From: a bacterium
Lineage (GTDB): Bacteria > Joyebacterota > Joyebacteria > Joyebacterales > Joyebacteraceae
Direction of reading: 5' to 3'
DNA length: 64,000 nt
NCBI GenBank assembly: GCA_025774935.1
Contig: JALGZK010000002.1
Span: forward strand, 62,001-126,000
Below the pieces are notes generated by a model. The model worked only from the letters and a program-made list of their open reading frames with translations. It was not told the DNA's origin and searched no databases. How positions within the stretch are numbered: the stretch's first letter is position 1; every line of letters starts with the position of its first letter. Both the position numbers and the translations under genes were made by a program. This document shows, piece after piece, positions 18,431-42,824 of this stretch.

Positions 18431-19480
18431 ATGAGACTCGCGACCGTACTCTCAGTGCTCCTCGCAGCACTCCTCGCCCCGATCACTCACGCAAACGTGC
18501 TCTTCGTCGACCCCTCGGGAGGCGGCGACTACGACAACATCCCGGAGGCCGTGGCGGCCGGAGGTTTGATCGACACCGTGCTCGTCGCGGCAGGGACCTA
18601 CGCCGTCACCGCTGCGAACGGGTGGCCCGTGATCCTCGACCCGCCCGCTCCGACCCTCATGAGCGTGGCCGGTGCCGCGGCGACGGTACTCGAAGGCGAC
18701 GGCGCGACGGCGGCATTCGCACGCGGCACCGCGGACGGCGTGGAGCTCAAGGTCGTTGGGTTCACAATCCGCAACACGACGCGCGTGGTCGACCTGGACT
18801 TCGGCATGACCTACGAGATCCTCTTCACGGACAACATCGTCGAGTCGAACGGCTACGGGCTCGAGGCGGACAACACGATGTCGGACGGGCTCATCGCGAG
18901 GAACACGTTCATCAACAACGGGAACTTCGGGATCAGCACTTACCACCTGTGGGGCACGATCGAGCTGAACGAGATCATGGGGAGCCCGATCGGGATCAAG
19001 GGTGTCTGCTGCGAGGAACCTCTCATCCGCAACAACTACATCCACGACAACATGCAAGAGGGAATCAAGACGGGCTTCGGGGCCCGCATCGAGGGTAACA
19101 TCATCGAGGGCAACGGAGCGGCCGGGGTCAGCACGGAGGGCGGCCCGGACAACTACGTCCAGGGGAACTTCATCCGTGAGAACGAGACCGGTCTGTTCCT
19201 TGCGTATCCGAACGGCATCGACCTCCGGTTCAACGACATACACGACAACACGACGTACGACCTCATGCTGGGCCCGGCGTCGCCCGCGGGCACCTTCGAC
19301 GCGACGCACAACTGGTGGGGCACGACCGACCCCGACGCGATAGCGGCGGGCATCTGGGACTGCGAGGACGATCCGGCTGTCGCGTGCTGCGTGATCTTCG
19401 AGCCCTGCTGCGCGTCCCCTGGTTGCCCGACGCAGACCGACGCGTCGACGTGGGGCGGGATCAAGGCGATGTACAGATAG
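18431..19480 (+). CDS. Secreted right-handed parallel beta-helix protein ending in the TWG-IK tag
   Basis: The 349-residue protein has a signal peptide (MRLATVLSVLLAALLAPITHA). 'VDPSGGGDYDNIPEAVAAGGLIDTVLVAAGTY', the usual start of pectate-lyase-like or NosD-like solenoids, is followed by repeated 'N.I..N..GI' turns (about 100-295) and a closing 'NWWGT'. After a cysteine-rich stretch with 9 cysteines in about 40 residues it ends DASTWGGIKAMYR at the stop codon. That ending is shared with five other secreted proteins in this window. Start: ATG 18431 after GAGGAGG. It probably acts outside the inner membrane; substrate or binding partner is unknown. Confidence 0.85.
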   Translation: MRLATVLSVLLAALLAPITHANVLFVDPSGGGDYDNIPEAVAAGGLIDTVLVAAGTYAVTAANGWPVILDPPAPTLMSVAGAAATVLEGDGATAAFARGTADGVELKVVGFTIRNTTRVVDLDFGMTYEILFTDNIVESNGYGLEADNTMSDGLIARNTFINNGNFGISTYHLWGTIELNEIMGSPIGIKGVCCEEPLIRNNYIHDNMQEGIKTGFGARIEGNIIEGNGAAGVSTEGGPDNYVQGNFIRENETGLFLAYPNGIDLRFNDIHDNTTYDLMLGPASPAGTFDATHNWWGTTDPDAIAAGIWDCEDDPAVACCVIFEPCCASPGCPTQTDASTWGGIKAMYR

Positions 19481-19527
19481 TCGGCCCTCCGACCCCTCGG
19501 CAGACGAGGCGGAGACAGACGACGAAA

Positions 19528-19552
19528 GGCAGGCGTCCGGCGGGCGCCTGCC
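19528..19552 (+). terminator. Intrinsic terminator after the beta-helix gene
   Basis: GGCAGGCG / CGCCTGCC forms an 8-base stem with a 9-base loop 48 bases after the stop codon, followed by GCTCTGTT. Confidence 0.5.
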
Positions 19553-19573
19553 GCTCTGTTACGCCCGGACCGG

Positions 19574-19602
19574 TTGACACCCGGCGGCCGCGAGACTAGA
19601 GT
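19574..19602 (+). promoter_or_regulatory. sigma70-type promoter for aldolase
   Basis: TTGACA at 19574-19579 and TAGAGT at 19597-19602 are 17 bases apart, about 70 bases before the aldolase start. Confidence 0.55.
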
Positions 19603-19672
19603 CGTAGGCTGGTGTGACGAACACTCGGGCCGAGGGACGGAGCGTCCCTCAATGCGAACGGAGCACGACTCC

Positions 19673-20698
19673 ATGGATCTCGACAGACTTGCAGACACGG
19701 CGGAAGCGCTCGTAGCCGAGGGCAGGGGCATCCTGGCCGCAGACGAGAGTACGAGCACGATCAAGAAGCGCTTCGACTCGATCAACGTCGAGTCGACAGA
19801 GGAGACGCGCCGCGCCTACCGCGAGCTCCTCTTCACGACGGACGGGGCGGAGGAGTTCATCAGCGGCGTCATTCTCTATGACGAGACCATTCGCCAGGCG
19901 ACGGCCGACGGGAAGCCGTTCCCGAAGGTGCTCGCGGACAAGGGCATCATCCCGGGCATCAAGGTGGACTCCGGCGCGAAGGACTTCGCCGGGTTCCCGG
20001 GCGAGAAGGTCACGGAGGGACTCGACGGCCTGCGCGAGCGGCTCGCCGAGTACCGCGAGCTGGGAGCGGGCTTCGCCAAGTGGCGCGCCGTGATCACGAT
20101 CGGCGACAGCATCCCGACGGGGGCCTGCGTTGACGCGAACGCCCACGCGCTGGCGCGATACGCCTCGCTCTGTCAGGAAGCGGACATCGTCCCGATCGTG
20201 GAGCCCGAGGTCCTGATGGACGGCAGCCACTCGATCGAGACCTGCTGGGAGGTCACCGCGGCGACTCTCGAGGCTGTCTACCACGCACTCCACGACCAGC
20301 GCGTCTTCCTCGAGGGAACGCTCCTCAAGCCGAACATGGTGCTCCCAGGGAAGGACTGCCCGACGCAGGCCGGCGCCGAGGAGATAGCAGAGGCGACGGT
20401 GGGCTGCTTCCTCACGGTCGTCCCCGCAGCTGTCCCGGGCATCGTGTTCCTTTCGGGTGGGCAGACTGCCGAGGAGGCGACCGAGCGCCTGAACGCCATG
20501 AACGCGATGGGCCAGTTCCCGTGGGAGCTCAGCTTCTCTTACGGTCGTGCCCTCCAGGCGCCGGTCCTCGAGGCATGGCGCGGAGACGCGGCGAATGCCG
20601 CGGCCGCTCAGAAGGCGTTCCACCACCGCTCGAAGCTGAACGGCGCCGCTCGATTCGGGACGTACTCGAGGGAGATGGAGGCCGCGCTCGTTCAGTGA
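19673..20698 (+). CDS. Class I fructose-bisphosphate aldolase
   Basis: The 341-residue enzyme belongs to the animal/plant-type class I family. 'AEGRGILAADESTSTIKKRF' near 16-35 is the N-terminal signature, and the Schiff-base lysine is K219 in EGTLLKPNMV. It also has 'FLSGGQTAEEATERLNAMN' near 255. It interconverts fructose 1,6-bisphosphate with dihydroxyacetone phosphate and glyceraldehyde 3-phosphate in the cytosol, without metal. The start MDLDRLADTAEALV at 19673 best fits the family; an in-frame ATG at 19652 adds seven residues. pfkA at 47.7 kb is the preceding glycolytic step. The family is less common in bacteria than class II. Confidence 0.95.
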   Translation: MDLDRLADTAEALVAEGRGILAADESTSTIKKRFDSINVESTEETRRAYRELLFTTDGAEEFISGVILYDETIRQATADGKPFPKVLADKGIIPGIKVDSGAKDFAGFPGEKVTEGLDGLRERLAEYRELGAGFAKWRAVITIGDSIPTGACVDANAHALARYASLCQEADIVPIVEPEVLMDGSHSIETCWEVTAATLEAVYHALHDQRVFLEGTLLKPNMVLPGKDCPTQAGAEEIAEATVGCFLTVVPAAVPGIVFLSGGQTAEEATERLNAMNAMGQFPWELSFSYGRALQAPVLEAWRGDAANAAAAQKAFHHRSKLNGAARFGTYSREMEAALVQ

Positions 20699-20795
20699 TG
20701 TGTGACGCGACATCTTCCACATAGCGTGACGCGCGGCGCGCTCCAGAGAGAACGGAGCGCGCTGTCGCGCGAATCGACCGCTCGGGGTGGGTCAG

Positions 20796-21173
20796 ATGAG
20801 TCTCAAGTTCGTCGTCCAGGAGCATCACGCGTCGAGGCTGCACTACGACTTCCGCCTCGAACGGGACGGCGTCCTCAAGTCGTGGGCCATTCCGAAGGGA
20901 CCGTCCATGAGCCTCTCGGACAAGCGGCTCGCGATCGCTGTCGAGGACCATGAGCTCAAGTACGGCGACTTCGAAGGTAAAATCCCCGATGGCGAGTATG
21001 GTGCCGGGCAGGTCATCATCTGGGATTCCGGGACCTACGAACCGATCAAGTGGACCGACAACGAGATCCAGTTCGTCCTGGACGGGAGGAAGCTACGAGG
21101 TGCATTCGTTCTCGTGAAGCTCCAACGCTCGAAGAAGGGCAACGAGTGGCTGCTCATCAAGCGCAAAGATTGA
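20796..21173 (+). CDS. Stand-alone LigD 3'-phosphoesterase (DNA polymerase ligase N-terminal) domain
   Basis: The 125-residue protein consists only of the phosphoesterase domain normally fused to ligase D: 'FVVQEHHASRLHYDFRLERDGVLKSWAIPKGPS' near 4-36, 'EDHELKYGDFEGKIPDGEYGAGQVIIWD', and 'KGNEWLLIKRKD' at the C-terminus. The conserved metal-site residues (H in EHHASRLHYD, D/R in FRLERDG) are present. Such domains heal 3' ends before ligation. There is no ligase, polymerase or Ku gene beside it. The ATG at 20796 follows GGGGTGG; a GTG three codons earlier is possible. Photolyase follows 67 bases later. Confidence 0.9.
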   Translation: MSLKFVVQEHHASRLHYDFRLERDGVLKSWAIPKGPSMSLSDKRLAIAVEDHELKYGDFEGKIPDGEYGAGQVIIWDSGTYEPIKWTDNEIQFVLDGRKLRGAFVLVKLQRSKKGNEWLLIKRKD

Positions 21174-21240
21174 CATGTGAAAACCGATGGGAATACCAGG
21201 CTAGACCCTCTCATCACAGAGCTCCGGAAGTCAGAGGGAA

Positions 21241-22623
21241 GTGATACAGGCCGAGCGCATTAAGCTTCTGAACGATAGGCCTGAGCGGCCATCGGCTCGC
21301 TACGTCCTCTACTGGATGCAGCAGGCTCAGCGCGCTTCGGGGAACCACGCCCTAGAGTTCGCGATCCGTGAGGCAAACCGCCGCCAGCTCCCGGTAGTGA
21401 CGGTCTTCGGTCTGACCCAGAGATTCCCTGGAGCCCAGCTGAGGCACTACGCATTCATGCTCGAGGGACTTGTTGAGGCAGAGGCGGCCCTTCGGAAGCG
21501 CGGCATTCGACTCATCGTCCGACTGGAACCACCGCCTCGGGCAGTTGCGGCACTTGCGGGAGGAGCGTCTCTGGTCGTCACCGACCGCGGCTATCTCAGA
21601 ATCCAGCGTCGGTGGAGGGAGCGGGTAGCGGAGCGCCTCGACTGCCGGGTCGTCCAGGTTGAGAGTGACGTCGTCGTCCCGGTTGATCTCGTCTCAAGCA
21701 AGGAGGAGTACGCGGCTCGAACGATTCGCCCGAAGATCCTCCGACACCGGTCTCGCTTCCTCACGCCGCTCGAGGAGACGAATCCCGCCAGATCCTCAGT
21801 GGGCTTGAGGCTTGGCGGCGAGAAACTTGGAACCGCCGAAGCTCTGTTGAAGCGTCTGAGAGTCGCACGTCGAGCGACGCGCGTGGCGACGTTTCAGGGG
21901 GGACAATCGGAGGCAACCAGGCACCTTCGCAGCTTCCTGAAGGCAAGCCTACCCCGATATGCGGATGAGCACAACAACCCCGGTCGCGCCTGCGTGTCTC
22001 GCCTCTCGCCTTACCTGCACTTCGGTCACATTTCGCCACTCGACGTTGCGCTTGCCGTGCGAAGCACACGCGGAGTGGCCGCAGCGAACAAGGACGGTTT
22101 CCTCGAAGAACTCATCGTCCGCCGGGAGCTGGCAATGAACTTCTGCAGATTCAACGATCATTACGACAACTATGAGTGCCTTCCAGAGTGGGCTCGGAGG
22201 ACTCTAGCCCAGCACGCGCGAGATCGCAGAGATTATCTCTACAGCCCTCAGCAGCTCGAGAGCGCCGCGACACATGATCCATACTGGAACGCCGCGCAAC
22301 GAGAGATGGTCGAGACCGGCACTATGCACGGATACATGAGGATGTACTGGGGGAAGAAGATCATCGAGTGGACCCCAAAGCCCGAGGGGGCGTTCGGAAT
22401 CGCGATAGCTCTCAACAACACGTATCAACTCGATGGCCGCGATCCCAACTCCTTCGCCGGCGTCGCCTGGTGCTTCGGCAAACACGATCGTCCGTGGAAA
22501 GAGCGAGAAGTATTTGGCCAGGTCCGCTGGATGAGCGCGGCCGGTTTGGAACGGAAGTTCGACATGAACGCATACGTCGAGTATGTCGAGCGAGCGTCGG
22601 CGAAGGGAGAGGTACGAATGTGA
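21241..22623 (+). CDS. Class II CPD photolyase
   Basis: The 460-residue protein starts at GTG 21241 after AGAGGGA. It has an N-terminal photolyase fold ('SARYVLYWMQQAQRASGNHALEFAI') and a C-terminal FAD-binding part with the class II features 'RACVSRLSPYLHFGHISP', 'ELIVRRELAMNFC', 'GTMHGYMRMYWGKKIIEW' and 'NNTYQLDGRDPNSFAGVAWCFGKHDRPW'. It uses light to split cyclobutane pyrimidine dimers. The next gene overlaps by four bases (GTGA), a tight operon. Base composition looks slightly less GC-rich than neighbours, a possible transfer sign. The DPYWNAAQREM motif is also typical of this class. Confidence 0.93.
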   Translation: MIQAERIKLLNDRPERPSARYVLYWMQQAQRASGNHALEFAIREANRRQLPVVTVFGLTQRFPGAQLRHYAFMLEGLVEAEAALRKRGIRLIVRLEPPPRAVAALAGGASLVVTDRGYLRIQRRWRERVAERLDCRVVQVESDVVVPVDLVSSKEEYAARTIRPKILRHRSRFLTPLEETNPARSSVGLRLGGEKLGTAEALLKRLRVARRATRVATFQGGQSEATRHLRSFLKASLPRYADEHNNPGRACVSRLSPYLHFGHISPLDVALAVRSTRGVAAANKDGFLEELIVRRELAMNFCRFNDHYDNYECLPEWARRTLAQHARDRRDYLYSPQQLESAATHDPYWNAAQREMVETGTMHGYMRMYWGKKIIEWTPKPEGAFGIAIALNNTYQLDGRDPNSFAGVAWCFGKHDRPWKEREVFGQVRWMSAAGLERKFDMNAYVEYVERASAKGEVRM

Positions 22624-23588
22624 GCACGAAGCCGAGCCACGGCGAGCGACCGCGCGTGGGTATCAGTACGTGTCTTCTGGGAGAGAACGTGAGGTACAAC
22701 GGTGGGCACTCCCGGGATCGTTTCCTGACGGATACGTTCGGGAGATTCGTCGACTGGGTTCCGGTCTGCCCGGAGGTCGAGTGTGGCCTCCCCGTCCCAA
22801 GAGAGTCCATGCACCTCGAAGGGGACCGGGCGGCTCCACGTCTCGTCACGAGCCGAACTCATGTGGACCACACCAACAGGATGCTGAGATGGGCGCGCGG
22901 CCGGCTCAGGGCGCTCGAGGGAGAGGAACTGGTTGGCTTCATCTTCAAGGCGAACTCGCCCAGCTCCGGCATGGCTCGCGTCAAGGTCTTCGACGAAGAC
23001 GGCATGCCGCACAAGGTAGGGGTCGGGATATGGGCGCGTGTCTTCATGGATCACTTCCCTCTTCTGCCCGTCGAAGAGGAAGGGCGTCTTCATGACGATC
23101 TTATCCGGGAGAACTTCATCGAGCAGATCTTCTGTCTAAGGCGCTACAGGGACGCGGTGAGGGGTCGTCGCTCGCGGGGAGCCCTCGTCGACTTTCACGC
23201 CTCCCACAAGCTCCAGCTCATGGCCCACAGCCCGAAGCATCTCAGGGAGATGGGGCGGCTCGTCGCGCGCGCGAAGGAGCTCGGGGCGTCCGAGCTTTAC
23301 ACCCGCTACGAGGAACTCCTGATGACCGCGCTGGCTCTCAAGGCGACACCGGGGAAGAACGCGAACGTGCTCCAGCACGGACTCGGCTACTTCAAGATGA
23401 AGCTGACCCCCGACGAGAGGGTCGAGATGCTCGAGATTATCGAGCGGCACAGAGAGGGGTACCTGCCTCTCGTAGTTCCGGTCACGCTCCTCAGTCACTA
23501 CGTCAGGAAGTACAGGGAGCCCTACCTCGAGCGTCAGTCGTTCCTGAATCCCCACCCTCTGGAGCTCAAGCTCAGAAACCACGCATGA
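22620..23588 (+). CDS. DUF523/DUF1722 (YbgA-like) protein
   Basis: The 322-residue protein has an N-terminal DUF523 domain (about 12-160: 'VGISTCLLGENVRYNGGHSRD', 'PVCPEVECGLPVPRESM') and a C-terminal DUF1722/YbgA domain (about 195-310: 'FHASHKLQLMAHSPKHLREMGRLVA', 'ALKATPGKNANVLQHGLGYFK'). It starts at GTG 22620, overlapping the photolyase stop by four bases, with GGGAGAGG upstream. In E. coli ybgA also sits next to phr, which supports a shared, still undefined, role in repair or light response. The cysteines in the first domain could bind metal; function is not established. Confidence 0.92.
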   Translation: MSTKPSHGERPRVGISTCLLGENVRYNGGHSRDRFLTDTFGRFVDWVPVCPEVECGLPVPRESMHLEGDRAAPRLVTSRTHVDHTNRMLRWARGRLRALEGEELVGFIFKANSPSSGMARVKVFDEDGMPHKVGVGIWARVFMDHFPLLPVEEEGRLHDDLIRENFIEQIFCLRRYRDAVRGRRSRGALVDFHASHKLQLMAHSPKHLREMGRLVARAKELGASELYTRYEELLMTALALKATPGKNANVLQHGLGYFKMKLTPDERVEMLEIIERHREGYLPLVVPVTLLSHYVRKYREPYLERQSFLNPHPLELKLRNHA

Positions 23589-23609
23589 GGTGCATTCGGA
23601 GTCGGGGGA

Positions 23610-23638
23610 TTGACACGCGGACCTTCCGGAATCAGACT
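23610..23638 (+). promoter_or_regulatory. sigma70-type promoter for malic enzyme
   Basis: TTGACA at 23610-23615 and CAGACT at 23633-23638 are 17 bases apart, giving a leader of about 130 bases to the ATG at 23773. Confidence 0.45.
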
Positions 23639-23712
23639 GTGGAAGAATAAATGAGTCCTCGTTCATGAATAAGGAGTCGTGGTCTGCTCCAGCACGTACG
23701 CTCCGGGCATGA

Positions 23713-25440
<1,728 letters not shown>

Positions 25441-25471
25441 CCCAGTCAGGGTGGAGTAGATGGGTCGAGGA

Positions 25472-25493
25472 GGCGGGTCCCGAGGGGCCCGCC
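25472..25493 (+). terminator. Intrinsic terminator after malic enzyme
   Basis: GGCGGGTCC-CGAG-GGGCCCGCC gives a 9-base stem with one G-U pair, followed by TTCATTCG, 31 bases after the stop codon. Confidence 0.55.
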
Positions 25494-25575
25494 TTCATTC
25501 GTCGGCAAACCAGTCCACGCGAAGAGGCGATTCCTCCACGCCCCGGGGCCGGGGGCCGCCGTCCAGCCTCGACCG

Positions 25576-25608
25576 GTGATTGTAATTCACCAATCACAGT
25601 GCTAGACT
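25576..25608 (+). promoter_or_regulatory. Promoter with overlapping inverted-repeat operator for the haem-protein group
   Basis: TTGTAA at 25580-25585 and TAGACT at 25603-25608 are 17 bases apart. GTGATTG (25576-25582) and CAATCAC (25591-25597) form an inverted repeat with an 8-base gap that covers the -35 box, as repressor or activator sites often do. Of the 309 bases between malic enzyme and the next gene, the rest is leader. Confidence 0.5.
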
Positions 25609-25685
25609 CGTTGTGCCGCCCCCGTGGTCGTGCCCGGAGGAGGACAACGGAGCCACCCCCTTCGCATCTATATGAAAGGGAGCGG

Positions 25686-25715
25686 CCCGGCCGCAGGAAC
25701 GAGCGGCCGGGTTTT
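25686..25715 (+). terminator. Terminator-like hairpin in the leader of the haem-protein group
   Basis: CCCGGCCGC (25686-25694) and GCGGCCGGG (25703-25711) form a perfect 9-base stem followed by TTTT. It lies between the promoter at 25580 and the first start codon at 25750, so it may act as an attenuator. Confidence 0.5.
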
Positions 25716-25749
25716 CGACTCATGCGCGGACGGGAGGAGGAGGATCGAC

Positions 25750-26355
25750 ATGCTCAGGACACTTGGGATCATCATCGTACTCGCAGTCGTCGGGGCGGCG
25801 ACGATCGGATTCGCGCGTTCCGGCAACCCGCCCGACGCCAGGACCGGGGCGCCGGGGGAGAGCACGTGCGCTGGTTGCCACGGCAACCTGAACGTCGGCG
25901 GCGGCTCGGTCACGGTGACCGCCCCGGACTCTTTCACGCCCGGCGACACCGTGGACGTGTTCGTCCAGGTCGAGCGCGCGGGGCAGTCGCGGTGGGGATT
26001 CGAGGTAACGGTCCTCGACGGCGCGGACCAGCCGGCCGGCGACATCATCCTGACGGAGCCCGCCCGGACGCAGCTCTCGGTGGCCGGGGGAACCGGGCGG
26101 CAGTACGTGAAGCAGACGTCGCTCGGAACCGATCCCGGGACGCCGAATCTCTCGCCGGGGTGGGGATTCCGATGGGCTTCACCTGTCTCGACGCCCGGCG
26201 CCGTGTCGTTCTACATCGTCGGGATCGCAGCGAACGGGAACGGCGGCACGAGTGGCGACTACACGTACACCGACGTCCACGTCATGGACGGTGTGAGTGC
26301 ATCCATCGAGGAGGATCGAACCACGTGGGGCAAGGTCAAGGCACTCTTCCGCTGA
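25750..26355 (+). CDS. Secreted CxxCH protein (choice-of-anchor V / Reeler-like), TWG-IK tagged, paralogue 1
   Basis: The 201-residue protein has a signal peptide (MLRTLGIIIVLAVVGAATIGFA), then 'RTGAPGESTCAGCHGNLNVGGG' containing a CxxCH haem-c motif, a beta-sandwich ('VTVTAPDSFTPGDTVDVFVQVERAGQSRWGFEVTVLD'), and ends DRTTWGKVKALFR at the stop. The 'GAPGE.TCxxCHG' plus sandwich combination recalls the 'choice-of-anchor V' domain, named because its members carry different C-terminal sorting signals. The assignment is from memory of the family and should be checked. First of three tandem paralogues; the start follows GGAGGAGGA. Likely periplasmic or extracellular. Confidence 0.8.
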   Translation: MLRTLGIIIVLAVVGAATIGFARSGNPPDARTGAPGESTCAGCHGNLNVGGGSVTVTAPDSFTPGDTVDVFVQVERAGQSRWGFEVTVLDGADQPAGDIILTEPARTQLSVAGGTGRQYVKQTSLGTDPGTPNLSPGWGFRWASPVSTPGAVSFYIVGIAANGNGGTSGDYTYTDVHVMDGVSASIEEDRTTWGKVKALFR

Positions 26356-26401
26356 GCGCCTGGGATCTCCGCAGCAATGGATCAGGCCAGGAGGTGGCAT
26401 C

Positions 26402-27007
26402 ATGCTGCGCACAGTCTGGTTGATCGCGATTCTCGGAACGCTCGCATGTGCGGGCGCCGCAGTCGGCTTCTCCACGGGACCACCGGACGGAGCAACGGGA
26501 GCCCCCGGTGAGTTCACCTGTGCCGACTGCCACGGCAACCTGAACGTGGGCGACGGTACGATGACCGTGACGGCGCCGACCTCGTACGCTCCCGGGGACA
26601 CCATCGACGTGTCCCTCAAGGTCGAGCAGGAGGGTCAGGTTCGCTGGGGGTTCGAGCTGACCGTGCTCGATGCCGCCGACCTGCCGGTAGGAGACATCAT
26701 CGTGACCGAGCCTACGCGTACGCAGCTGTCGATAGGCGGCGTGACGTTCCGTCAGTACCTCAAGCACACGGCCCTCGGGACCGACCTCGGTACTCCCGAC
26801 GAGTCGCCCGGCTGGAGCTTCAAGTGGGCCTCCCCCGCAGTCGATCCTGGCCCCGTCACGTTCTACATTGCCGGGAACGCCGCGAACGGGGACGGTTCCA
26901 GCTCCGGGGACTTCATCTACACGAGCGTCTTCATGTACGACGACTCCCACTCGTTCATCGTTGACGAGGAGGCGACATGGGGCATGATCAAATCCCTCTA
27001 TCGGTAG
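26402..27007 (+). CDS. Secreted CxxCH protein (choice-of-anchor V / Reeler-like), TWG-IK tagged, paralogue 2
   Basis: The 201-residue paralogue of the previous gene lies 46 bases after it, with AGGAGGTGG before ATG 26402. Signal peptide MLRTVWLIAILGTLACAGAAVG; haem motif in 'GAPGEFTCADCHGNLNVGDG'; sandwich 'RWGFELTVLDAADLPVGDIIVTEPTRTQLS'; C-terminus DEEATWGMIKSLYR. The two proteins align along their whole length, so this is a tandem duplication. The cysteine in the signal peptide does not follow a convincing lipobox. Function unknown; electron transfer is suggested by CxxCH and by neighbours. Confidence 0.8.
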   Translation: MLRTVWLIAILGTLACAGAAVGFSTGPPDGATGAPGEFTCADCHGNLNVGDGTMTVTAPTSYAPGDTIDVSLKVEQEGQVRWGFELTVLDAADLPVGDIIVTEPTRTQLSIGGVTFRQYLKHTALGTDLGTPDESPGWSFKWASPAVDPGPVTFYIAGNAANGDGSSSGDFIYTSVFMYDDSHSFIVDEEATWGMIKSLYR

Positions 27008-27065
27008 TCGAACGCGATCGCAACTTGTCGGGGCGAACAACCAGCCCGGTAACAGAGAGAGCGAT

Positions 27066-27686
27066 ATGGAGGCAGAGAGCACAGTGACTCGAACGACAGG
27101 CGTAGGAGTGCTCGCGGTGGTTCTCGCGGCCAGCATCGCGCCCGGGGTCTCGGGGTCTGCGACCGTGCCACCCAACGCGTTCACGGGGGCTCCCGGAGAG
27201 CAGACGTGCGCCCTCTGCCACGGCAATCTGAATGTCGGCGACGGCTCCATCATCATCACGGCTCCGGATACGTACATTCCCGGCGTGTGGATCGACCTGA
27301 CGGTTCAGGTGGCGATGGATGGGCAGTCCCGCTGGGGCTTCGAGCTGACCGTGCTCGACGCCAACGATCTGCCGGTGGGCAACATCATTGAGACCGACCC
27401 CGTGCACACGCAGTACTCGTTCGACAGCACCACCGGCCGTGAATACCTGAAGCATACCGAAGCCGGCACGTACGACGGTTGGTCTGACGTGTCGCCAGGC
27501 TGGGAGTTCACGTGGGTTTCGCCCGGCAATGAGGCGCGGCCGGTCACCTTCTACATCGTCGGGAACGCAGCCAACGGAAGCGGGTTCCCAGACGGAGACT
27601 ATGTCTACACTCAGACCCTCACGTACCAAGACACAGGCGTTGACGACAAGAGGACATGGGGTATGATTAAGGCACTCTACCGATAG
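27066..27686 (+). CDS. Secreted CxxCH protein (choice-of-anchor V / Reeler-like), TWG-IK tagged, paralogue 3
   Basis: The 206-residue third copy lies 58 bases after paralogue 2. It has a signal peptide (TGVGVLAVVLAASIAPGVSG), 'GAPGEQTCALCHGNLNVGDG', the same RWGFELTVLD core and C-terminus DDKRTWGMIKALYR. It differs in the region before the tag (a Tyr-rich 'GDYVYTQTLTYQDTG'). It probably belongs to the same transcript as the other two, since no terminator separates them. It is presumed to be exported and to bind one haem c; neither is shown. Confidence 0.8.
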   Translation: MEAESTVTRTTGVGVLAVVLAASIAPGVSGSATVPPNAFTGAPGEQTCALCHGNLNVGDGSIIITAPDTYIPGVWIDLTVQVAMDGQSRWGFELTVLDANDLPVGNIIETDPVHTQYSFDSTTGREYLKHTEAGTYDGWSDVSPGWEFTWVSPGNEARPVTFYIVGNAANGSGFPDGDYVYTQTLTYQDTGVDDKRTWGMIKALYR

Positions 27687-27773
27687 TCGAACTCACAGCC
27701 ACGGCTCCGTGGCCGCATCCTGCGGAGCGCAGACCCCGTTGTCCCGGATCCCGGGACGCGGACGGAGGCTGTC

Positions 27774-28205: not shown

Positions 28206-28240
28206 GCCAGAGCACCCCTGCCCGGAGGGTGGTACTGATC

Positions 28241-29622: not shown

Positions 29623-29628
29623 GACACC

Positions 29629-29657: not shown

Positions 29658-29684
29658 TCTGTGTCTGATGGCGGGGAGGCAGGG

Positions 29685-31874: not shown

Positions 31875-31888
31875 CGCGGCGTGACCCG

Positions 31889-31916
31889 TTGCATCGCGTT
31901 CCCCCTGTGGTAGACT
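31889..31916 (+). promoter_or_regulatory. sigma70-type promoter for the GNAT/hydroxylase group
   Basis: TTGCAT at 31889-31894 and TAGACT at 31911-31916 are 16 bases apart, about 30 bases before the ATG at 31947. The -10 box is identical to that at 25603. Confidence 0.5.
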
Positions 31917-31946
31917 CTCTCCGCCAACACTCACGAAAGGTCGCCG

Positions 31947-35829: not shown

Positions 35830-35841
35830 AAGGAGCTGCCG

Positions 35842-37770
35842 ATGAGATTGACTCTCGTGCTTGCCGTCCTCGCCTGCATCGCAGGAGGCGCGTCGGCGGA
35901 CACGCCACCCACACACGAGGTCCTCGACGACGCGCTGCAGGCGATCGCGCTCTCGCGCGACGACCTCCACTTCAGGACGGACTACGCGGACGCGCCCGAC
36001 TCGTTCAGGGTGTCCGTCGTCGATTCGCTCCTCGAGAACCCCCTCCACACGGAGCACTACGTTCACGGCTTCGCGGATCGGACGAAGAAGATCCGCTCCC
36101 TCGAGGAGCTCGTGGTCGCGTGTGCCGCGCAGCTCGACCTCGACGCCGCGCTCGATGAGGCGGGACTCGAGCCGCCGGAGAGCGGGACGATGGAGCCGAA
36201 ATCGCCCGGACCGCACGCGCTCGACGTTCTCCTCCCGGCCGCGCGCGAGGCGGCGCGCGAGATCGAAGCCGCCTTCGCCGGACTCAGCGGAGAGGACCGC
36301 GACCTGATCGCGCGGCACGCGCCGGTCCTTCTCGAGGAGGAGGAGTTCGACCCCGACAAGCCAATCGACGTCCGGGACCGTGAGGCCGAGGAGGAAGAGG
36401 AGCTCGGCGACGAGCTCCTGAGGATCGCCGGGCACGTCGACTACGAGAGGATCGCCAGGGCCGGGGCCATCGTGGCGAGGGCGGTCGATCTGGCCATCCC
36501 GCTCGTCGAGGACCCCGAGTCGATGCAGCTTCTCCGACCGGAAGGCGGGGCCACGCCGGACGCGGGGCTAGAGCGCGCCGCGACCGGCGACGTCTGGGAC
36601 GTGATCGCCACCGACGCGGGGATAGTCGCGATCGGCGGACCCGGCCCGACCACCTACACCGAGGCCTGCGCGATCGTGATCGACGTCGGAGGCGACGACA
36701 CGTACGAGGGCTGCGCCTCAGGCACGCACAGGCTCAACCAGGTGTCCGTCGTGATCGACCTGGACGGAGACGACGTCTACTCGGGCGGACACCACACGCT
36801 CGCCGCGGGATTCATGGGCGTCGGAGTGCTCGTCGACCTCGAGGGAGCCGACCGGTACACCGCCGGGAGCTTCTCGTTGGGATCCGGGCTGTTCGGCGTC
36901 GGCGTTCTCGACGACCGGGACGGGAACGACACCTACGCGGGCGACACGTGCGTTCAGGGGTCGGGGGCGTTCGGGCTCGGCGCGCACCGCGACCGCTCGG
37001 GGAACGACACGTATCAGTCGGCGCTCTTCTCGCAGGCCTTCGGATTCGTGATGGGCGTGGGGCTCCTCCACGACGCGGGGGGGAACGACATCTACACGGC
37101 CGGCTGGAAGTACACCGACGAGATCCGCTACTTCGATCACTTCCTGAGTCTCTCGCAGGGGTTCGGGTTCGGCTGGCGCCCCGACGCGTCCGGCGGGATC
37201 GGACTCCTGGTCGACGAGAAGGGCAACGACGTGTACCTGTCCGACATCTTCGGACAGGGTTCGAGCTACTGGTTCGCGGTCGGCGGACTCGTCGACTACG
37301 AGGGCAACGACCAGTATGTCTCCTACCAGTACGCGCAGGGGGCCGGGACCCACATCACGGTCGCCGCGCTCGTCGACTTGGACGGCGACGACAACTACGT
37401 GTCGAAGGGAGTCTCGCAGGGCTGCGGGCACGATCTCGCGATCGGCCTCCTCCACGACTACGGGGGCGACGACAACTACACGTGTCACGACCTGTCGCAG
37501 GCAGCAGGGAACGCGAACGGCATCGGGGTCCTCTTCGACGACGCGGGGAATGACGCGTACTCCGTCCGCGGCGTCGGCAACACCCACGGCTACGGGAACT
37601 GGAGGCGCGACTACGGAAGCATCGGGGTCTTCATCGACGCGGGAGGAACCGACTCGTACTCGGGCCGGGGTGTCGAGGGCGGGTGGTGGACGCACAGCAC
37701 GTACGGGATCGGCGTGGACACCGAGACGGCGGTGGACGAGGAAGCCGCGGAAGGAGCGGACCCCGAATGA
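35842..37770 (+). CDS. Secreted protein with about twelve 26-residue Gly-Asn-Asp-x-Tyr repeats
   Basis: The 642-residue protein has a signal peptide (MRLTLVLAVLACIAGGASA), an acidic helical domain (about 20-260) of unknown type, then about twelve tandem units with the consensus 'GVGxLxDxxGNDxYxxxxxxQGxG' (about 270-625). Examples are VIDVGGDDTYEG, VLDDRDGNDTYAG, LLVDEKGNDVYLSD and VFIDAGGTDSYSG. The spacing and the Gly/Asp pattern suggest a beta-solenoid, perhaps binding calcium like RTX repeats, but the repeat is not the RTX nonapeptide. I do not recognise a named family. The next gene, a HEAT protein, overlaps by four bases (ATGA). Confidence 0.75.
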   Translation: MRLTLVLAVLACIAGGASADTPPTHEVLDDALQAIALSRDDLHFRTDYADAPDSFRVSVVDSLLENPLHTEHYVHGFADRTKKIRSLEELVVACAAQLDLDAALDEAGLEPPESGTMEPKSPGPHALDVLLPAAREAAREIEAAFAGLSGEDRDLIARHAPVLLEEEEFDPDKPIDVRDREAEEEEELGDELLRIAGHVDYERIARAGAIVARAVDLAIPLVEDPESMQLLRPEGGATPDAGLERAATGDVWDVIATDAGIVAIGGPGPTTYTEACAIVIDVGGDDTYEGCASGTHRLNQVSVVIDLDGDDVYSGGHHTLAAGFMGVGVLVDLEGADRYTAGSFSLGSGLFGVGVLDDRDGNDTYAGDTCVQGSGAFGLGAHRDRSGNDTYQSALFSQAFGFVMGVGLLHDAGGNDIYTAGWKYTDEIRYFDHFLSLSQGFGFGWRPDASGGIGLLVDEKGNDVYLSDIFGQGSSYWFAVGGLVDYEGNDQYVSYQYAQGAGTHITVAALVDLDGDDNYVSKGVSQGCGHDLAIGLLHDYGGDDNYTCHDLSQAAGNANGIGVLFDDAGNDAYSVRGVGNTHGYGNWRRDYGSIGVFIDAGGTDSYSGRGVEGGWWTHSTYGIGVDTETAVDEEAAEGADPE

Positions 37771-38801
37771 GACGAATCGAACTCCACTCCGTCCTTGTCA
37801 AGGCCGCCGGAGCGCTCGCTCTGGGAGCCGCCGTCTTCCTGATGACCGTCACGGCGCGCGCTGCGGACGCCGACCTCGTACCCGACACGGAGGCGCTCTC
37901 GAACCTCTCTCCCGAGGAGCTGTTCCTCCGGGCGGCCTCGTCCGCGCTCCAGTTCGAGTCGATGCGCGAGCCTTCGCGGGAGCTTCTCGTCGAGAACTAC
38001 GAGGAGTCGATCCCCTACCTCGTCACCCAGCTGGAAACGGACGGCGCCAGGGAGCGCCACGCTCTCGAGGACATCTTCGTCCGCATCGGGACGCCCGCGG
38101 TCGAGCCTCTCATCGAGGCGTTCGAGTCAGAGCGGGTGAACGAAGAGACGACGAGGGGACTCCGTCTGGCGTCGTACATCCTCGGCAGGCTCGAGGACCC
38201 CTCGGCTACCCGGCCCCTCGTAGCCGCGCGCACGCATCCCGACTGGAAGGTCCGCGGATCGATAGCGGGCGCCGTCGGCAGGATCGCCGACCAGGAGGCC
38301 GTCCCGGCCCTCGTCGCGATGCTCCGCGACGGGAACGAGGTCGTGCGGAAGAGCGCCGCCGTCTCCATCCGGCGCGTGGCGGAGAAGATCGACGAAGGCG
38401 AGTTCGTCGACAGGAAGCTCGCGGAGGACGCCGTCCGCGCGCTCATCGTCGCGCTCGACGACCGCTACTACTCGGTCCGCTACAGCGCGGGCGACGCGCT
38501 CGCCGCGATCGGCAGACCGGCGGGGCACTGGCTCGAGGTCACCGCGAAGACCGGCGAGATGAGGGCGCGGCTCGTCGCCATCAGGGCACTCGGCGAGATC
38601 GGTGACGACGACGCACGCGATTCGCTCAGGAAGCTCCTGGCTGACGAAGAGTGGACGGTGAGAGCGTACGCAGCCCAGGCGATCGGCAGGGTCGGGCTCG
38701 ACGGCGGGTCTCGCAAGGACCTCCAGCGAATGCTCGAGTCGGAGGCGCATCCTTTCGTGACGCTGATGGTGGAGGGTGCCCTCGCGAGTGACGAGGGTTA
38801 G
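37767..38801 (+). CDS. Exported HEAT-repeat protein
   Basis: The 344-residue protein has a signal peptide (about 1-33, 'ALALGAAVFLMTVTARA'). HEAT or PBS-lyase-type repeats follow (about 85-340), e.g. 'AVEPLIEAFESE', 'VRGSIAGAVGRIADQEAVPALVAML', 'VRYSAGDALAAIG', 'VRAYAAQAIGRVGL'. Such repeats form a helical scaffold for protein binding. It overlaps the repeat-protein gene by four bases, so the two products probably work together outside the inner membrane. It also overlaps the convergent GT39 gene by four bases (shared TTAG at 38798-38801). Confidence 0.85.
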   Translation: MRRIELHSVLVKAAGALALGAAVFLMTVTARAADADLVPDTEALSNLSPEELFLRAASSALQFESMREPSRELLVENYEESIPYLVTQLETDGARERHALEDIFVRIGTPAVEPLIEAFESERVNEETTRGLRLASYILGRLEDPSATRPLVAARTHPDWKVRGSIAGAVGRIADQEAVPALVAMLRDGNEVVRKSAAVSIRRVAEKIDEGEFVDRKLAEDAVRALIVALDDRYYSVRYSAGDALAAIGRPAGHWLEVTAKTGEMRARLVAIRALGEIGDDDARDSLRKLLADEEWTVRAYAAQAIGRVGLDGGSRKDLQRMLESEAHPFVTLMVEGALASDEG

Positions 38802-40981
38802 GGTCCCGGGGGGCTGGAGTCCTGTTCGGTCGGGGCCCGTCCGGGGGACTCGGACCGGGAGGAACCGCTCCTGCGCATGAGCTCGCGCACCTGGCGGATG
38901 TTCGCCTGTATCTTCGGGTCGTCGGGGGCGCACTGGCGGGCCATCTCGAGTTCCCTGAGCGCCTCGTCGTACTGGCCCGTCTTCGCGAGGACGATCCCGA
39001 GGTTGTTCCTCGCCTCGGAGAACGTGGGAGCCGCCATCACCGCCCTCGTGTACGCGGCGATCGCCTCCGCCGGACGGTCGGTCTCCTCGAAGAGCAGCCC
39101 CAGTGCGTTCCACGCCTCCTCGAACTGCCGGTCCGCGATGACCGCGCTCTTAAAGTGCGCCTCGGCGAGATCCCACTGGGCGCTCTGCACGAGCATGCCG
39201 CCCAGGTTGTAGTGGGCCATCGCCATGTACGGGTCGATCTCCACCGCGAGCGCGAACCAACGCGCCGCGGTCTCGTGGTCTCCTTTCGCCCAGTGGTGAA
39301 TCCCGATGTTGTTGGCGGCGGAGGCGAGCTCGGGGTCCTTCTTGAGCGCGGTCTCGTACGCCTCGATCGCCTCCTCTTCCCTCCCGAGCCGCTCGAGAGC
39401 CAGCCCCATGTTGTTGTAGGCTCGCGCGAACCCCGGCGAGAGTTCGATCGCGCGCTCGTACTCCTCGATCGCCTCCTCGTACTTCCCCTGCGACGCTTTC
39501 GCGAGGCCGATCGTGAAGTACGTCTGCGGGTGCTCTCCCCGGTGCGTCTCGTAGAAGTCGTAGTTGACAAAGAGCCCGAGCGTGACGAGCGCGACGAGGG
39601 GCCAGACGAGCGCCTTCACGTCACGTCGCTTCACCCTCTCGACGATCCAGAACGCGGCCGCGACCGCGAAGAGGATCAGCATCGGGATCACGGGCAGCCT
39701 GAACCGCGCGTTCACGAAGAACAGCACGACCCCGACCATGTAGGAAATGACGAAGATCGAGAGGAGCGTCGGGACCCGTCGTCGACGCCCGAACATCCAC
39801 ATTCCCAGGAGTCCCAGCGGCCCGACCAGTCCGAAGTGCAGCCACGACGTGATGCGGAACACCCACGACATCTTCCCGAAGTGATAGACGTCCTTGTTGT
39901 TCGCGAGCTCGAAGCTGTCCCAGAAGTACACGAACTTCTTGAGGAAGAGCTTCGCAGCGCGGCCGGGCTGCGTGGTGATGAAACGCCGTCCCCGCTCGTA
40001 CCAGTAGTCCGATATCTCACTCGGCTTGAGCGCGCACCCTCGCCCGAACTCAGCGATCCTCGCCGCGTCCTCGTTCCGCCAGCTCTCACCGAGCTCCGGG
40101 ACGACCGCCGACGCCCCGTCGGACTCCTCATTGTTCCCGATGAAGAAGTTGACTCCGCCCTGTGAGGCAATGGGGACGAAGTCCTTCCCGATGATGTAGT
40201 TCCGTGCCGTCACGGGCGCGATCAGGAGCGCCATGCCCAGAAGGACAATGCCGAAGCGCAGCACGGCCGTCCCGAATGCCGTGTTGGTCCGCGCGATGCG
40301 GACCCGGTGGCACGGATCCGTCGTCCGGCGGAAGTCCTTCGCCGCGCCCAGCCAGATCCACACCAGGAGAAACGGGATGAAGATGAGCACGCTCGGCCGG
40401 GCGATCGCCGACGCGCCCGCGACCAGGCCCGCGACGAGCCACCGTCCCCAGCTCGGCGTCTCGTCGGCCCGCAGGACGGCCAGCAGAAGCACCGTGTCGA
40501 GGAGAACGATCAGGGTGACGATGAGGAGCTCGTTCGTGAAGTAGATGAAGAACGGGTAGACGGCTGCAACCGCTGCGGAGACGATCGCTATCTTCTTGCC
40601 GAAGACGCGCCGCCCGAGGAAGTAGAGCGCCACCGGCAGGAGTGCGCCGTAGAACACCTGGGCCGTCCGGGCCGCGAAGAGGCTGCCGCCGAAGATCTTG
40701 TAGAAGAGGCCGAGGGTGTAAGGGTAGAGAGGAGCCCTGAAGAAGACTTCCCCACCGATCCAGTCGCCTCCCGCGAGCGCCTGCGCCCACTCGACGTGGT
40801 AGAGCTCGTCGAGCATCGGATGGTCCGAAAGGGGGCTCTTCCTGAGGTGGAGCACGTACAGGAAGCGCCCCACCCACGCGACGGCGTAGATCGCGACGAG
40901 ACCCACCAGCGTCCACCGCGTCTCGGCCGGCGTGCACGTCCCCTGTCCTTCGGTCGGTCTCCCCTTGCTCACGTCAGACAC
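38798..40981 (-). CDS. GT39-like membrane glycosyltransferase with C-terminal TPR domain
   Basis: The 727-residue protein has about ten membrane helices (about 25-500) with the GT-C/PMT-type early acidic motif (MLDELYHVEWAQAL) and 'FFRAPLYPYTLGLFYKIFGG', then about six TPRs (about 515-690: 'GKYEEAIEEYERAIELSPGFARAYNNMGLAL' style). It likely transfers sugar from a polyprenyl-phosphate donor on the periplasmic face, with the TPR part binding partners. It starts at GTG 40981 with GAGG upstream. The C-terminus is Ser/Pro-rich. The DUF2723 protein at 58 kb has the same layout (membrane enzyme plus TPR tail). Confidence 0.85.
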   Translation of the reverse strand: MSDVSKGRPTEGQGTCTPAETRWTLVGLVAIYAVAWVGRFLYVLHLRKSPLSDHPMLDELYHVEWAQALAGGDWIGGEVFFRAPLYPYTLGLFYKIFGGSLFAARTAQVFYGALLPVALYFLGRRVFGKKIAIVSAAVAAVYPFFIYFTNELLIVTLIVLLDTVLLLAVLRADETPSWGRWLVAGLVAGASAIARPSVLIFIPFLLVWIWLGAAKDFRRTTDPCHRVRIARTNTAFGTAVLRFGIVLLGMALLIAPVTARNYIIGKDFVPIASQGGVNFFIGNNEESDGASAVVPELGESWRNEDAARIAEFGRGCALKPSEISDYWYERGRRFITTQPGRAAKLFLKKFVYFWDSFELANNKDVYHFGKMSWVFRITSWLHFGLVGPLGLLGMWMFGRRRRVPTLLSIFVISYMVGVVLFFVNARFRLPVIPMLILFAVAAAFWIVERVKRRDVKALVWPLVALVTLGLFVNYDFYETHRGEHPQTYFTIGLAKASQGKYEEAIEEYERAIELSPGFARAYNNMGLALERLGREEEAIEAYETALKKDPELASAANNIGIHHWAKGDHETAARWFALAVEIDPYMAMAHYNLGGMLVQSAQWDLAEAHFKSAVIADRQFEEAWNALGLLFEETDRPAEAIAAYTRAVMAAPTFSEARNNLGIVLAKTGQYDEALRELEMARQCAPDDPKIQANIRQVRELMRRSGSSRSESPGRAPTEQDSSPPGP

Positions 40982-41210
40982 CGGTGCCTCACAATACCGC
41001 GCTATCCTGGTGTATCGCGTAGCCGCCGCCGACGGCCTCTTTTCCGCGCCCCAGGGGGAATCCGCTCACGCGCGCAACTGCACTCCCCAAGCGTCTCTAT
41101 CATATTGAAGGACCTCGTTCCGCGCAAGCCCTCGCGAGCACGGCCAAGCCTGAGACCCAGTCACTTCCTGTCGATATCGCTCATGCTGTGCCAGTTGTAC
41201 AAAAAAGCCG

Positions 41211-41240
41211 TTGACCGTGCCCTCCTGAATGTCGTACAAT
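41211..41240 (+). promoter_or_regulatory. sigma70-type promoter with long structured leader
   Basis: TTGACC at 41211-41216 and TACAAT at 41235-41240 are 18 bases apart. Of the 463 bases between the GT39 gene and 41445, the part before this promoter shows nothing I recognise. Confidence 0.55.
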
Positions 41241-41246
41241 ACAAGG

Positions 41247-41440
41247 GCATTGCGGGAGCAAACTGCTCAGATCCCGAAAGGAGATGACGTTGACCTCCGA
41301 CGGGGCGATGGCTCAGTAGTGCCGTCGGCTGTGCGTTGCTCTCTACATGTCCATGTGAACTGGGGAAGCAACGACCGGACACGCACGGGTCCCCCGGCGC
41401 ACGACCGAGCATGAGATCGGAGTGCGTGGGACCGGAGGGT
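41247..41440 (+). promoter_or_regulatory. Structured 5' leader, candidate cis-acting RNA
   Basis: The leader of about 200 bases can form consecutive hairpins: CGGG/CCCG (enclosing AGC/GCT), GGAG/CTCC, CGACGG/CCGTCG, then GTGCG-TTGCT paired with AGCAA and CGCAC around ACATG/CATGT, and finally CGCAC-ACCGA/TCGG-GTGCG just before the ribosome-binding site. No known riboswitch consensus was matched; c-di-GMP types I and II, fluoride, TPP and cobalamin were considered. Confidence 0.35.
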
Positions 41441-41444
41441 ATGC

Positions 41445-42101
41445 ATGAAACGACTGCTCTTACCGACCGCGGTGGCGGCCTTCGTCATCCTCCTCGCCCT
41501 TCCGTCAATGGCGTCTGACACGTTCGTCGTCATGATGGGCCAGGGCAGTCTCATGAAGTCTCCGGTCAGATACACGGGGACCTTCCTGTCGGGCTTCACA
41601 GGAACGTGGGAGCTGGAGATCGACGATGCGCTGTGGCCGGCGGCCGCCGACACCACGGCCAGGTTCAATTACATCTGGGAGAACTTCTTCGCCGACGGGT
41701 ATGACAGCACACCCGGGGCCGAGGCATGGTACGGAACGCTCGGCGAAGGCTACGGGGCGCCGGCGACGTTCAGCTTCACACTGACGTCTCCGGCGGGCTA
41801 CCTGGCGGGCTCGTCTTCGTTCACGATCATGATCCGCGACGAAGTGCCCGACCGTGCTCTTTCTCAGAGTGAGAAGCACGGGAACAACAACCTGACGGCC
41901 ACGCTCGTGGCCGATCCGGAGGCGGGAGAGGCAGAGTTCGACCAGCAGTGCGGGGAGGCAGCGCTGGGTTCGGGGGACTTCAATTTCGTCAACCCGCCTG
42001 CCGATGACATGGTGTTCATCAACGGCCTGGTTCAGACGTTCATTTGCCCCAGCCCTGTCGAGGACAGCACCTGGGGAATCATCAAGGGGCTGTACCGATA
42101 G
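41445..42101 (+). CDS. Small secreted protein, TWG-IK tagged, paralogue A
   Basis: The 218-residue protein has a signal peptide (MKRLLLPTAVAAFVILLALPSMA), a beta-rich body with 'NYIWENFFADGYDSTPGAEAWYGTLG' (about 73-98), two cysteines late in the chain, and the end PVEDSTWGIIKGLYR at the stop. It has no recognised domain. The following gene encodes a paralogue. The ATG at 41445 follows CGGAGGG. Probably exported; the tag resembles a sorting or processing signal shared with other families in the window. Confidence 0.75.
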   Translation: MKRLLLPTAVAAFVILLALPSMASDTFVVMMGQGSLMKSPVRYTGTFLSGFTGTWELEIDDALWPAAADTTARFNYIWENFFADGYDSTPGAEAWYGTLGEGYGAPATFSFTLTSPAGYLAGSSSFTIMIRDEVPDRALSQSEKHGNNNLTATLVADPEAGEAEFDQQCGEAALGSGDFNFVNPPADDMVFINGLVQTFICPSPVEDSTWGIIKGLYR

Positions 42102-42176
42102 CGTGGGACGGCCGACAAGATAATGAGAGCAACAGCTAGAGGACAGTGCCCGAGAGGGCAAAGCCACAAGGAGAGG

Positions 42177-42824
42177 ATGATGCGCGCACTGATCATCGGG
42201 ATCGCGGTTCTGGCGCTGGCTTCCGTGGCTTCGGGCGAATCGTTCGTCTGGTTCTTCGGCGCAGGCGACGGGGACTTCATGGACAGTCCCCCGGTGTTCG
42301 CCGGCGTCATGGATCCGGGCGGGACGATCAGCGAAGGTGGCTGGTCGATCACGGTTCCCGACGCCGGGTGGCCTCTCGACCCTGTTGAGCGTACCCAGTA
42401 CATCTGGAACACGTTCTTCGCGGGCAACTACACGCCGGGAACGCCTGGTTTCTGGAAGGGCCACTTCGATGTGGCGCACGGCCTGCCGGAGCTTTCGGCT
42501 CTGACGGTCGTGGACGACACCAACGGTGGAACGATGTACGGCACGTGCACGATCGAGATTCAGGTCCTCGACCTGAACAGCAACGGCGAGCTCGACGAAG
42601 GCGAGTACTGCAGCGGCAGTCTCACGGGGCTCGTCATCATCGTCCGTCAGGGCGATGGCGTCTACGACGGCATGTGCGGCGAGGGCAACTACTTCGGCAC
42701 GTACGACAGAGACTGCCCTGGCACCCTCGAGACCTGGAACTTCGGTATGTACCTGTGGCTCGAGGACTGCTCCACACCGGTGGAGGACGCGACCTGGGGT
42801 TCCATCAAGGCCCTGTATCAGTAG
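42177..42824 (+). CDS. Small secreted protein, TWG-IK tagged, paralogue B
   Basis: The 215-residue protein starts at ATG ATG after AAGGAGAGG. Signal peptide MMRALIIGIAVLALASVASG; body with 'QYIWNTFFAGNYTPGTPGFWKGHF', aligning with paralogue A; a Gly/Asp-rich 'LDLNSNGELDEGEYC' stretch that resembles a calcium loop; cysteines that may form disulfides; and the end PVEDATWGSIKALYQ. It lies 75 bases after paralogue A and is followed by a terminator. No known domain was recognised. Confidence 0.75.
   Translation: MMRALIIGIAVLALASVASGESFVWFFGAGDGDFMDSPPVFAGVMDPGGTISEGGWSITVPDAGWPLDPVERTQYIWNTFFAGNYTPGTPGFWKGHFDVAHGLPELSALTVVDDTNGGTMYGTCTIEIQVLDLNSNGELDEGEYCSGSLTGLVIIVRQGDGVYDGMCGEGNYFGTYDRDCPGTLETWNFGMYLWLEDCSTPVEDATWGSIKALYQ

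Follow-up and report, generated by a model that had tools for sequence, protein, structure and literature searches.

A short conserved C-terminal tail as a probable sorting signal of predicted secreted proteins in SprA-bearing bacteria

Six predicted secreted proteins encoded in a 64,000-nucleotide stretch of bacterial DNA (the window; contig JALGZK010000002.1 of assembly GCA_025774935.1, positions 62,001 to 126,000) end with a common tail of the [ST]WGxIKx[LM][YF]R type. Comparisons of protein and genome sequences indicate that this tail is very likely a sorting signal. The best-supported mechanism, to which we assign a probability of about 0.5, is that of a minimal C-terminal sorting signal read by the type IX secretion machinery, as suggested by the co-occurrence of the tail with SprA and by homologous protein bodies. 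The tail is a sequence label for a large set of predicted exported proteins in uncultured phyla, and as a signal it is very small.

The stops of the six proteins are at positions 19480, 26355, 27007, 27686, 42101 and 42824. Among 2097 stop-terminated reading frames scanned in the window, exactly six end with TWG.[IV]K.[LM][YF][RQ], and the looser pattern [ST]WG.[IVL]K added none in the same frames. All six proteins are encoded on the + strand, have an export-type hydrophobic N-terminus and fall into three groups by their bodies. The right-handed beta-helix protein (18431..19480; 349 amino acids, aa; PF13229, 6.7e-19) has the tail TWGGIKAMYR at 19448-19477. The choice-of-anchor V proteins are encoded by 25750..26355 (201 aa; tail TWGKVKALFR, 26323-26352; NF041895, 6.4e-25), 26402..27007 (201 aa; tail TWGMIKSLYR, 26975-27004; NF041895, 4.2e-31) and 27066..27686 (206 aa from the ATG at 27066 or 200 aa from the GTG at 27084; tail TWGMIKALYR, 27654-27683; NF041895, 7.2e-26). 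NF041895 scores 88-108 bits in these three proteins, the cut-off being 42, and the MYXO-CTERM-anchored family model stays below its cut-off in the window proteins. The remaining two proteins constitute an unnamed family and a single blastp cluster; no family matched either of them. They are encoded by 41445..42101 (218 aa; tail TWGIIKGLYR, 42069-42098) and 42180..42824 (214 aa from the ATG at 42180, with the ATG at 42123 also possible; tail TWGSIKALYQ, 42792-42821). Among the Pfam and NCBIfam matches listed for the six proteins, none covers the last 15 residues. An earlier sequence-only reading of this DNA had described a tail shared by six proteins with signal peptides and three unrelated kinds of body, and all of this was confirmed; its "CxxCH Reeler-like" proteins are the choice-of-anchor V group.

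The genome that contains the window (3.24 Mb, 40 contigs, 96% complete; the window lies in contig C18) was searched with a profile of the six tails (A2). The profile found 103 places at E≤10, of which 61 are at E<1e-3, the six included, and chance is excluded by these numbers. Eight rows were dropped, namely four with frames too short (25, 28, 51 and 90), three with the tail not near a stop (62, 82 and 98) and the one with the lowest score (103); 95 proteins were kept, and some low-scoring rows among them may be chance matches. The stop directly follows the tail in 76 of the 95. Sixty-four matches reach at least 20 bits; in 55 of them the stop comes straight after the tail, and in 63 no more than nine residues separate the two, C28:415 being the exception. 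Conserved columns include G (85 of 95), I (79), Y (79) and R (80), and T or S precedes the tryptophan in 90 proteins; the alignment columns were anchored on the W and K, which are therefore invariant. Ahead of the core, P, V and E are found at their lead-in positions in 63, 65 and 67 of the 95 proteins, respectively. The acidic lead-in noticed earlier in the window is a genome-wide feature: the nine residues before the last ten contain at least one D or E in 74 of the 76 exactly terminal tails, with a mean of 2.04 compared with 1.31 expected from the preceding 60 residues.

In one paralogous family (L039:796-1350, L042:861-1490, L057:1668-2225 and L057:859-1431) the tail runs two to seven residues past the core and is rich in F (TWGKIKAFFGF, TWGKIKSFFSELF; KAFFGF, KSFFSELF, KAAVSRMFN, KHFFRELF). 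Outer-membrane beta-barrel end signals finish in an aromatic residue, and an identity of the tail with such signals was rejected, as R occupies the last of the ten core positions in 80 of the 95 proteins. A PDB search with the tail gave no match at E≤10.

Export-type N-termini were found in 91 of the 95 tail proteins compared with 25 of 108 tail-less control frames (Fisher p 8e-29), or in 88 of 95 compared with 20 of 108 when the start was required to lie in the first 40% of the frame. They were called by a hydrophobicity rule, for which the most favorable start was selected in the same way in both sets; the control frames, at least 150 aa from stop to stop, were taken from the same genome stretches, and some of them may not be genes. 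These proportions speak against the strictly cytosolic carriers that the sequence-only reading had regarded as a possible objection.

The bodies of the 95 proteins form 49 blastp clusters (E 1e-3), the largest of which holds 16 proteins. Their Pfam and NCBIfam domains include beta-helix, polymorphic-membrane-protein repeats, MAM-like, CBM, CHRD, Cohesin, PKD, lamin-tail, plastocyanin-like and pectate-lyase domains. NCBIfam names among them are choice-of-anchor V, J and X, rhombosortase-dependent and myxosortase-dependent M36, a MYXO-CTERM-anchored family and the PEP-CTERM protein ScyF; outside the window we take these names as body kinship and not as membership, because the cut-off is not shown there. 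The term "choice-of-anchor" refers to anchors that vary. Judged by these similarities, the tail bodies are related to bodies that elsewhere bear other sorting signals. Among the 25 Pfam families and the NCBIfam families listed for the 95 proteins, none named is a described tail family, and the tail is neither confined to close paralogs nor covered by an NCBIfam tail model among the matches, the other two objections foreseen earlier. A conserved free C-terminus on proteins with export-type N-termini could also be explained by a C-terminal degron or quality-control tag for periplasmic proteases. Such a role is highly improbable, given that about 100 diverse and apparently ordinary secreted proteins encode the tail, with binding-type domains (Cohesin, plastocyanin-like, CBM, pectate lyase) among them.

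The similarity of the tails was further analyzed at the DNA level for 73 regular tails on different bodies. The same codon is used at shared residues with a frequency of 0.526 (19,678 comparisons), compared with 0.553 expected from the codon usage of the bodies, with deviations in either direction at single positions. Over the last 54 bases the nucleotide identity is 0.588, but it falls to 0.284 over the 40 bases past the stop. Codon identity at the expected level, together with DNA similarity that ends at the stop, implies that selection acts on the peptide, and recent copying of gene ends was rejected by both tests. Some tail genes are indeed paralogous, including three of the six in the window and the 16 members of the largest cluster. 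Still, an artifact or ordinary paralogy, with the tail belonging to a single shared domain or stemming from a gene end copied recently, is the least probable of the explanations considered: the 49 body clusters reject one shared domain, the codons are at equilibrium, no similarity extends beyond the stop, and other bodies carry the tail outside the phylum of this genome.

The combination of a variable body and a constant tail in dozens of proteins per genome resembles the PEP-CTERM/exosortase, GlyGly-CTERM/rhombosortase and MYXO-CTERM/myxosortase systems, which also have related body families by NCBIfam name. The tails of these systems consist of a membrane helix and a basic end. In contrast, the tail described here has no such helix: a 19-residue Kyte-Doolittle window above 1.6 occurs in the last 60 residues of only one of the 95 proteins (T33, a marginal 1.63). 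The likeness to LPXTG/sortase substrates consists in a C-terminal sorting signal, but the membrane helix is absent and LPxTG was found in none of the 95 proteins in the last 60 residues. Identity with the PEP-CTERM and LPXTG signals was rejected on these grounds. The sequence-only reading had held that the tail belongs to none of the PEP-CTERM, LPXTG and type IX signals; the first two exclusions stand and can be extended to MYXO-CTERM, whereas the flat exclusion of type IX secretion does not, in view of the SprA matches and the homologs with FlgD_ig-type C-terminal domains (CTDs) described below. A full-text literature search found none of six tail strings and no paper on such a tail.

The same genome contains at least 150 FlgD_ig domains (150 scored of 178 candidates). 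None of the 150 listed matches falls in any of the 95 tail proteins, and the FlgD_ig-bearing ends that were read resemble type IX type A domains. In a comparison with 27 of 30 FlgD_ig loci (L163, L165 and L177 left out), the bodies of 25 of the 95 tail proteins match FlgD_ig-ending proteins of this genome at E≤1e-3. Fourteen of these bodies are beta-helix proteins that match one protein (L180); the other 11 match six further proteins, nine of these 11 along a segment ending directly ahead of the CTD. Most of the body matches stop within about 30 residues of the CTD start; the match of T70 ends about 50 residues before the CTD, and that of T65 is a 23-residue stretch far from it.

Tail proteins have a median length of 242 aa, counted from the chosen start, and are short next to the FlgD_ig open frames, whose stop-to-stop median is 877 aa. 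This difference would fit a retention or docking peptide, that is, an amphipathic stretch of few residues that keeps small soluble proteins attached to a periplasmic scaffold or to the inner face of the outer membrane, without being an export signal. In agreement with such a role, W, I, L and Y alternate with K and R, and the hydrophobic moment of the tail at 110 degrees is 0.57 compared with 0.39 for shuffles. However, a similarly increased moment is found at 180 degrees (0.55 compared with 0.35), so that these values neither establish a helix for the tail nor decide between helix and strand, and relatives of the bodies bear surface-sorting signals; we consider a docking role quite unlikely. 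The tail behaves as a sorting or processing signal, as had been proposed from the window: it is C-terminal, occurs with export-type N-termini on many bodies, is under protein-level selection and occupies the position at which homologs have another C-terminal signal.

The wider distribution was studied with a profile of 79 tails from the same genome (A3) at E≤1e-3; tails were counted by E-value, and frames were read for fetched loci. The tail was found in all 20 genomes of the phylum to which the window belongs (hereafter, own phylum), which is probably Candidatus Effluviviacota, at 32 to 105 places in each, and the lead-in is usually [ST]PVExx. Absence from related genomes, which the sequence-only reading had named as evidence against a signal, was thus not observed. 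The strict DNA pattern PVExxTWGxIKALYR-stop, which locates near-identical tails and says nothing on the absence of variants, was found in 22 stretches in 13 genomes among 84,980 species genomes (six Candidatus Eisenbacteria, one Candidatus Krumholzibacteriia, one Candidatus Effluviviaceae and five "bacterium"). The Krumholzibacteriia-named phylum has the tail in 79 of 80 genomes, at 1 to 55 places, and tails were seen in all ten loci fetched from it.

An outgroup set of 290 genomes comprises the 20 tail-positive genomes of the own phylum and 270 others, among which at least 28, in 20 families, have the tail; ten of these 28 have at least five tails, and two of the ten belong to the Krumholzibacteriia-named phylum. 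With 31 candidates per genome scored for the tail and two for SprA, the outgroup counts are floors. At least two of the 28 (G136 and G283) belong to the Krumholzibacteriia-named phylum, their SprA coordinates being the same as those of G070 and G033; named records repeat numbered relatives, and genomes are not additive across the counts. At least one further phylum beyond the Krumholzibacteriia-named one carries the tail, and the description of the tail as lineage-specific is not supported. Tails were read in fetched loci of the other eight genomes with at least five tails, of two low-count genomes and then of the remaining 16 low-count genomes. All 18 loci from these 16 genomes have the tail within seven residues of the stop, and most of the 18 frames start with a hydrophobic stretch, as judged by eye, the exceptions being L219 (14 residues, cut by the contig end), L221 and L230. 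In four outgroup loci (L195, L197, L198 and L205) the final R is missing from the tail or the tail finishes with E (TTWGRVKALY, TTWGQIKSIF, TTWGAVKGLYE), which possibly represents a variant signal.

The SprA model TIGR04189 (E≤1e-3) matched 19 of the 20 genomes of the own phylum (17 over the cut-off), all 80 genomes of the Krumholzibacteriia-named phylum (72 over the cut-off) and none of 14 control genomes. In the outgroup set, SprA was matched in at least 105 of the 270 genomes, and it is over the cut-off in 77 of the whole 290. All 28 tail-positive outgroup genomes have SprA, 27 of them with a listed row over the cut-off; the match in G213 is weak (1.4e-4), and that in G350 from the same genus is strong. 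No tail was found in 165 SprA-negative outgroup genomes at the sensitivity used. The hypergeometric p for the co-occurrence is 2.7e-13 by genome and 1.6e-9 by family (20 families with the tail and 81 with SprA among about 206, hand-counted). A full-text literature search returned no paper that combines "type IX secretion" with "Krumholzibacter", and the terms "type IX", "sorting" and "C-terminal" do not occur in the excerpts consulted of PMC11323493 on Ca. Effluviviacota.

All evidence for a sorting signal that makes no reference to SprA would equally suit a C-terminal signal with a receptor or enzyme of its own (a PDZ-type or C-terminal peptidase, a transpeptidase or an outer-membrane anchor protein), which acts independently of type IX secretion and only has the same wider group of phyla in common with it. 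Receptors for a free carboxylate need an exactly terminal peptide, and such placement is seen in the 76 tails that end at the stop; furthermore, at the sensitivity used, the tail was not detected in 77 of the 105 outgroup genomes with SprA. The lack of tails in the 165 SprA-negative genomes and the homologous bodies with FlgD_ig CTDs in the same genome argue against this explanation, and we regard it as rather unlikely.

If the tail is read by type IX machinery, the tail proteins would be exported through Sec, as their N-terminal sequences suggest, and in the periplasm the free C-terminal [ST]WGxIKx[LM][YF]R-COOH would be recognized, whereupon the protein would reach the outer membrane or cross it. 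This route would most likely be served by the type IX secretion system, whose translocon is SprA; the peptide could be read by SprA or by a dedicated shuttle in the outer membrane, of the PorV or PorP/SprF kind. The decapeptide would thereby stand in for the large CTD found on other, mostly longer, cargo of the same genome, and the tail might be cleaved, perhaps near PVE. We infer the passage through the outer membrane, as well as the receptor and a possible cleavage. A decapeptide reader is plausible because specialized type IX shuttles exist: in the excerpts consulted of PMC12618676, type A CTDs of about 100 aa have PorV as the shuttle, and type B CTDs of 150-235 aa have PorP/SprF.

The tail resembles the type A and type B signals (TIGR04183 and TIGR04131) in being C-terminal, in its presence on many bodies of predicted Sec-exported proteins in SprA-matching genomes and in the homology of some of these bodies to FlgD_ig-tailed proteins. 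Of the 19 NCBIfam families that match the 95 tail proteins at E≤1e-3, none is TIGR04183 or TIGR04131. Another parallel is provided by the "short" CTDs of Prevotella intermedia, which, according to the excerpts consulted of PMC11969387, have 40-55 aa, typically three predicted beta-strands and the motifs of long CTDs; in both cases a shortened signal exists beside long ones in one genome.

Several observations weigh against the type IX mechanism. With its 10-15 residues, the tail is far shorter than the folded CTDs given in the excerpts of PMC12618676 (type A, about 100 aa; type B, 150-235 aa), and at about 15 aa it is shorter even than the 40-55 aa of the short CTDs in those of PMC11969387. 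The association between the tail and SprA is not independent of phylogeny, because SprA follows deep ancestry. SprA alone does not predict the tail, because of the 77 SprA-positive outgroup genomes that show none, and the Krumholzibacteriia-named phylum offers no within-phylum test, because SprA is matched in 80 of 80 genomes while the number of tails varies from 0 to 55. Among tail-rich genomes of the own phylum, G018 (57% complete) has no SprA match and G013 (78% complete) has a single weak one. No receptor was found, the genome searches being for the tail, SprA and FlgD_ig and not for PorV and PorP. A hydrophobic window past residue 35 is present in eight of the 95 tail proteins. Two tail proteins, L058:791-1942 and L047:893-1609, look like lipoproteins with a lipobox-like motif (LLSC by eye, LAAC by pattern), and in lipobox-bearing proteins a lipid anchor may coexist with the tail; the pattern also flagged L041:4409-4963, which is doubtful. 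The AlphaFold model of one choice-of-anchor V protein is poor (mean pLDDT 48, tail end 25-29).

One kind of small secreted protein of 130-147 aa was found in ten genomes outside the own phylum (L237-L246) by re-searching the 16 low-count outgroup genomes. It consists of a signal peptide, a body that reads as fibronectin-like and a nearly invariant end. Nine of these proteins are 24-38% identical to the first, tail included, and WGSIKA.FR, with M or L at the dot, is invariant in all ten; nine are linked by blastp, and the tenth (G304) was placed by alignment alone. No Pfam or NCBIfam family explains the small protein (the best match, 7e-4, is below the cut-off), and a PDB search gave one weak match (5z06, E 0.01). 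A profile of its body matches the stretch just before FlgD_ig in two proteins of the window genome (E 6e-5 and 2e-4) and none of its 95 tail proteins. No cluster of neighbors is common to more than three of the ten loci.

The tail may even constitute a third class of type IX signal, although we hold this to be slightly less likely than not: a free C-terminal decapeptide with a dedicated shuttle would then be ancient among phyla with SprA, having persisted in several lineages on a single small fibronectin-like protein and spread to about 100 cargo proteins per genome in Effluviviacota. Should type IX machinery read the tail, cargo would be addressed by a peptide far below the 40-residue-plus CTDs described in the excerpts consulted; a type IX signal of ten residues would represent a class not seen before, and surface display could be achieved with a tag of that length.

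The window also contains an example of the second kind of C-terminal signal found in this genome. The gene at 42935..47602 (+ strand), directly downstream of two tail genes, encodes a protein without the tail that combines a peptidase C25 domain (PF01364, 2.5e-52), FG-GAP and a beta-helix with a type IX type A-like FlgD_ig C-terminal end (PF13860, 3.9e-11); TIGR04183 scores 19.4 bits in it, under the cut-off of 23. Its C25 (gingipain-type) peptidase resembles PorU models (89 and 79 bits), far below their cut-offs of 420 and 450. The neighborhood of SprA in the same genome, viewed by eye, contained nothing informative. A search of viral contigs gave two matches to one tail pattern, neither of them a tail-like frame as judged by a regular expression, and none to a second pattern; a phage collection searched with the end of the window gave no match. 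The reading frame at 20787-21173 presumably resembles a stand-alone LigD 3'-phosphoesterase-type domain. An Rfam scan of the window identified one tRNA.

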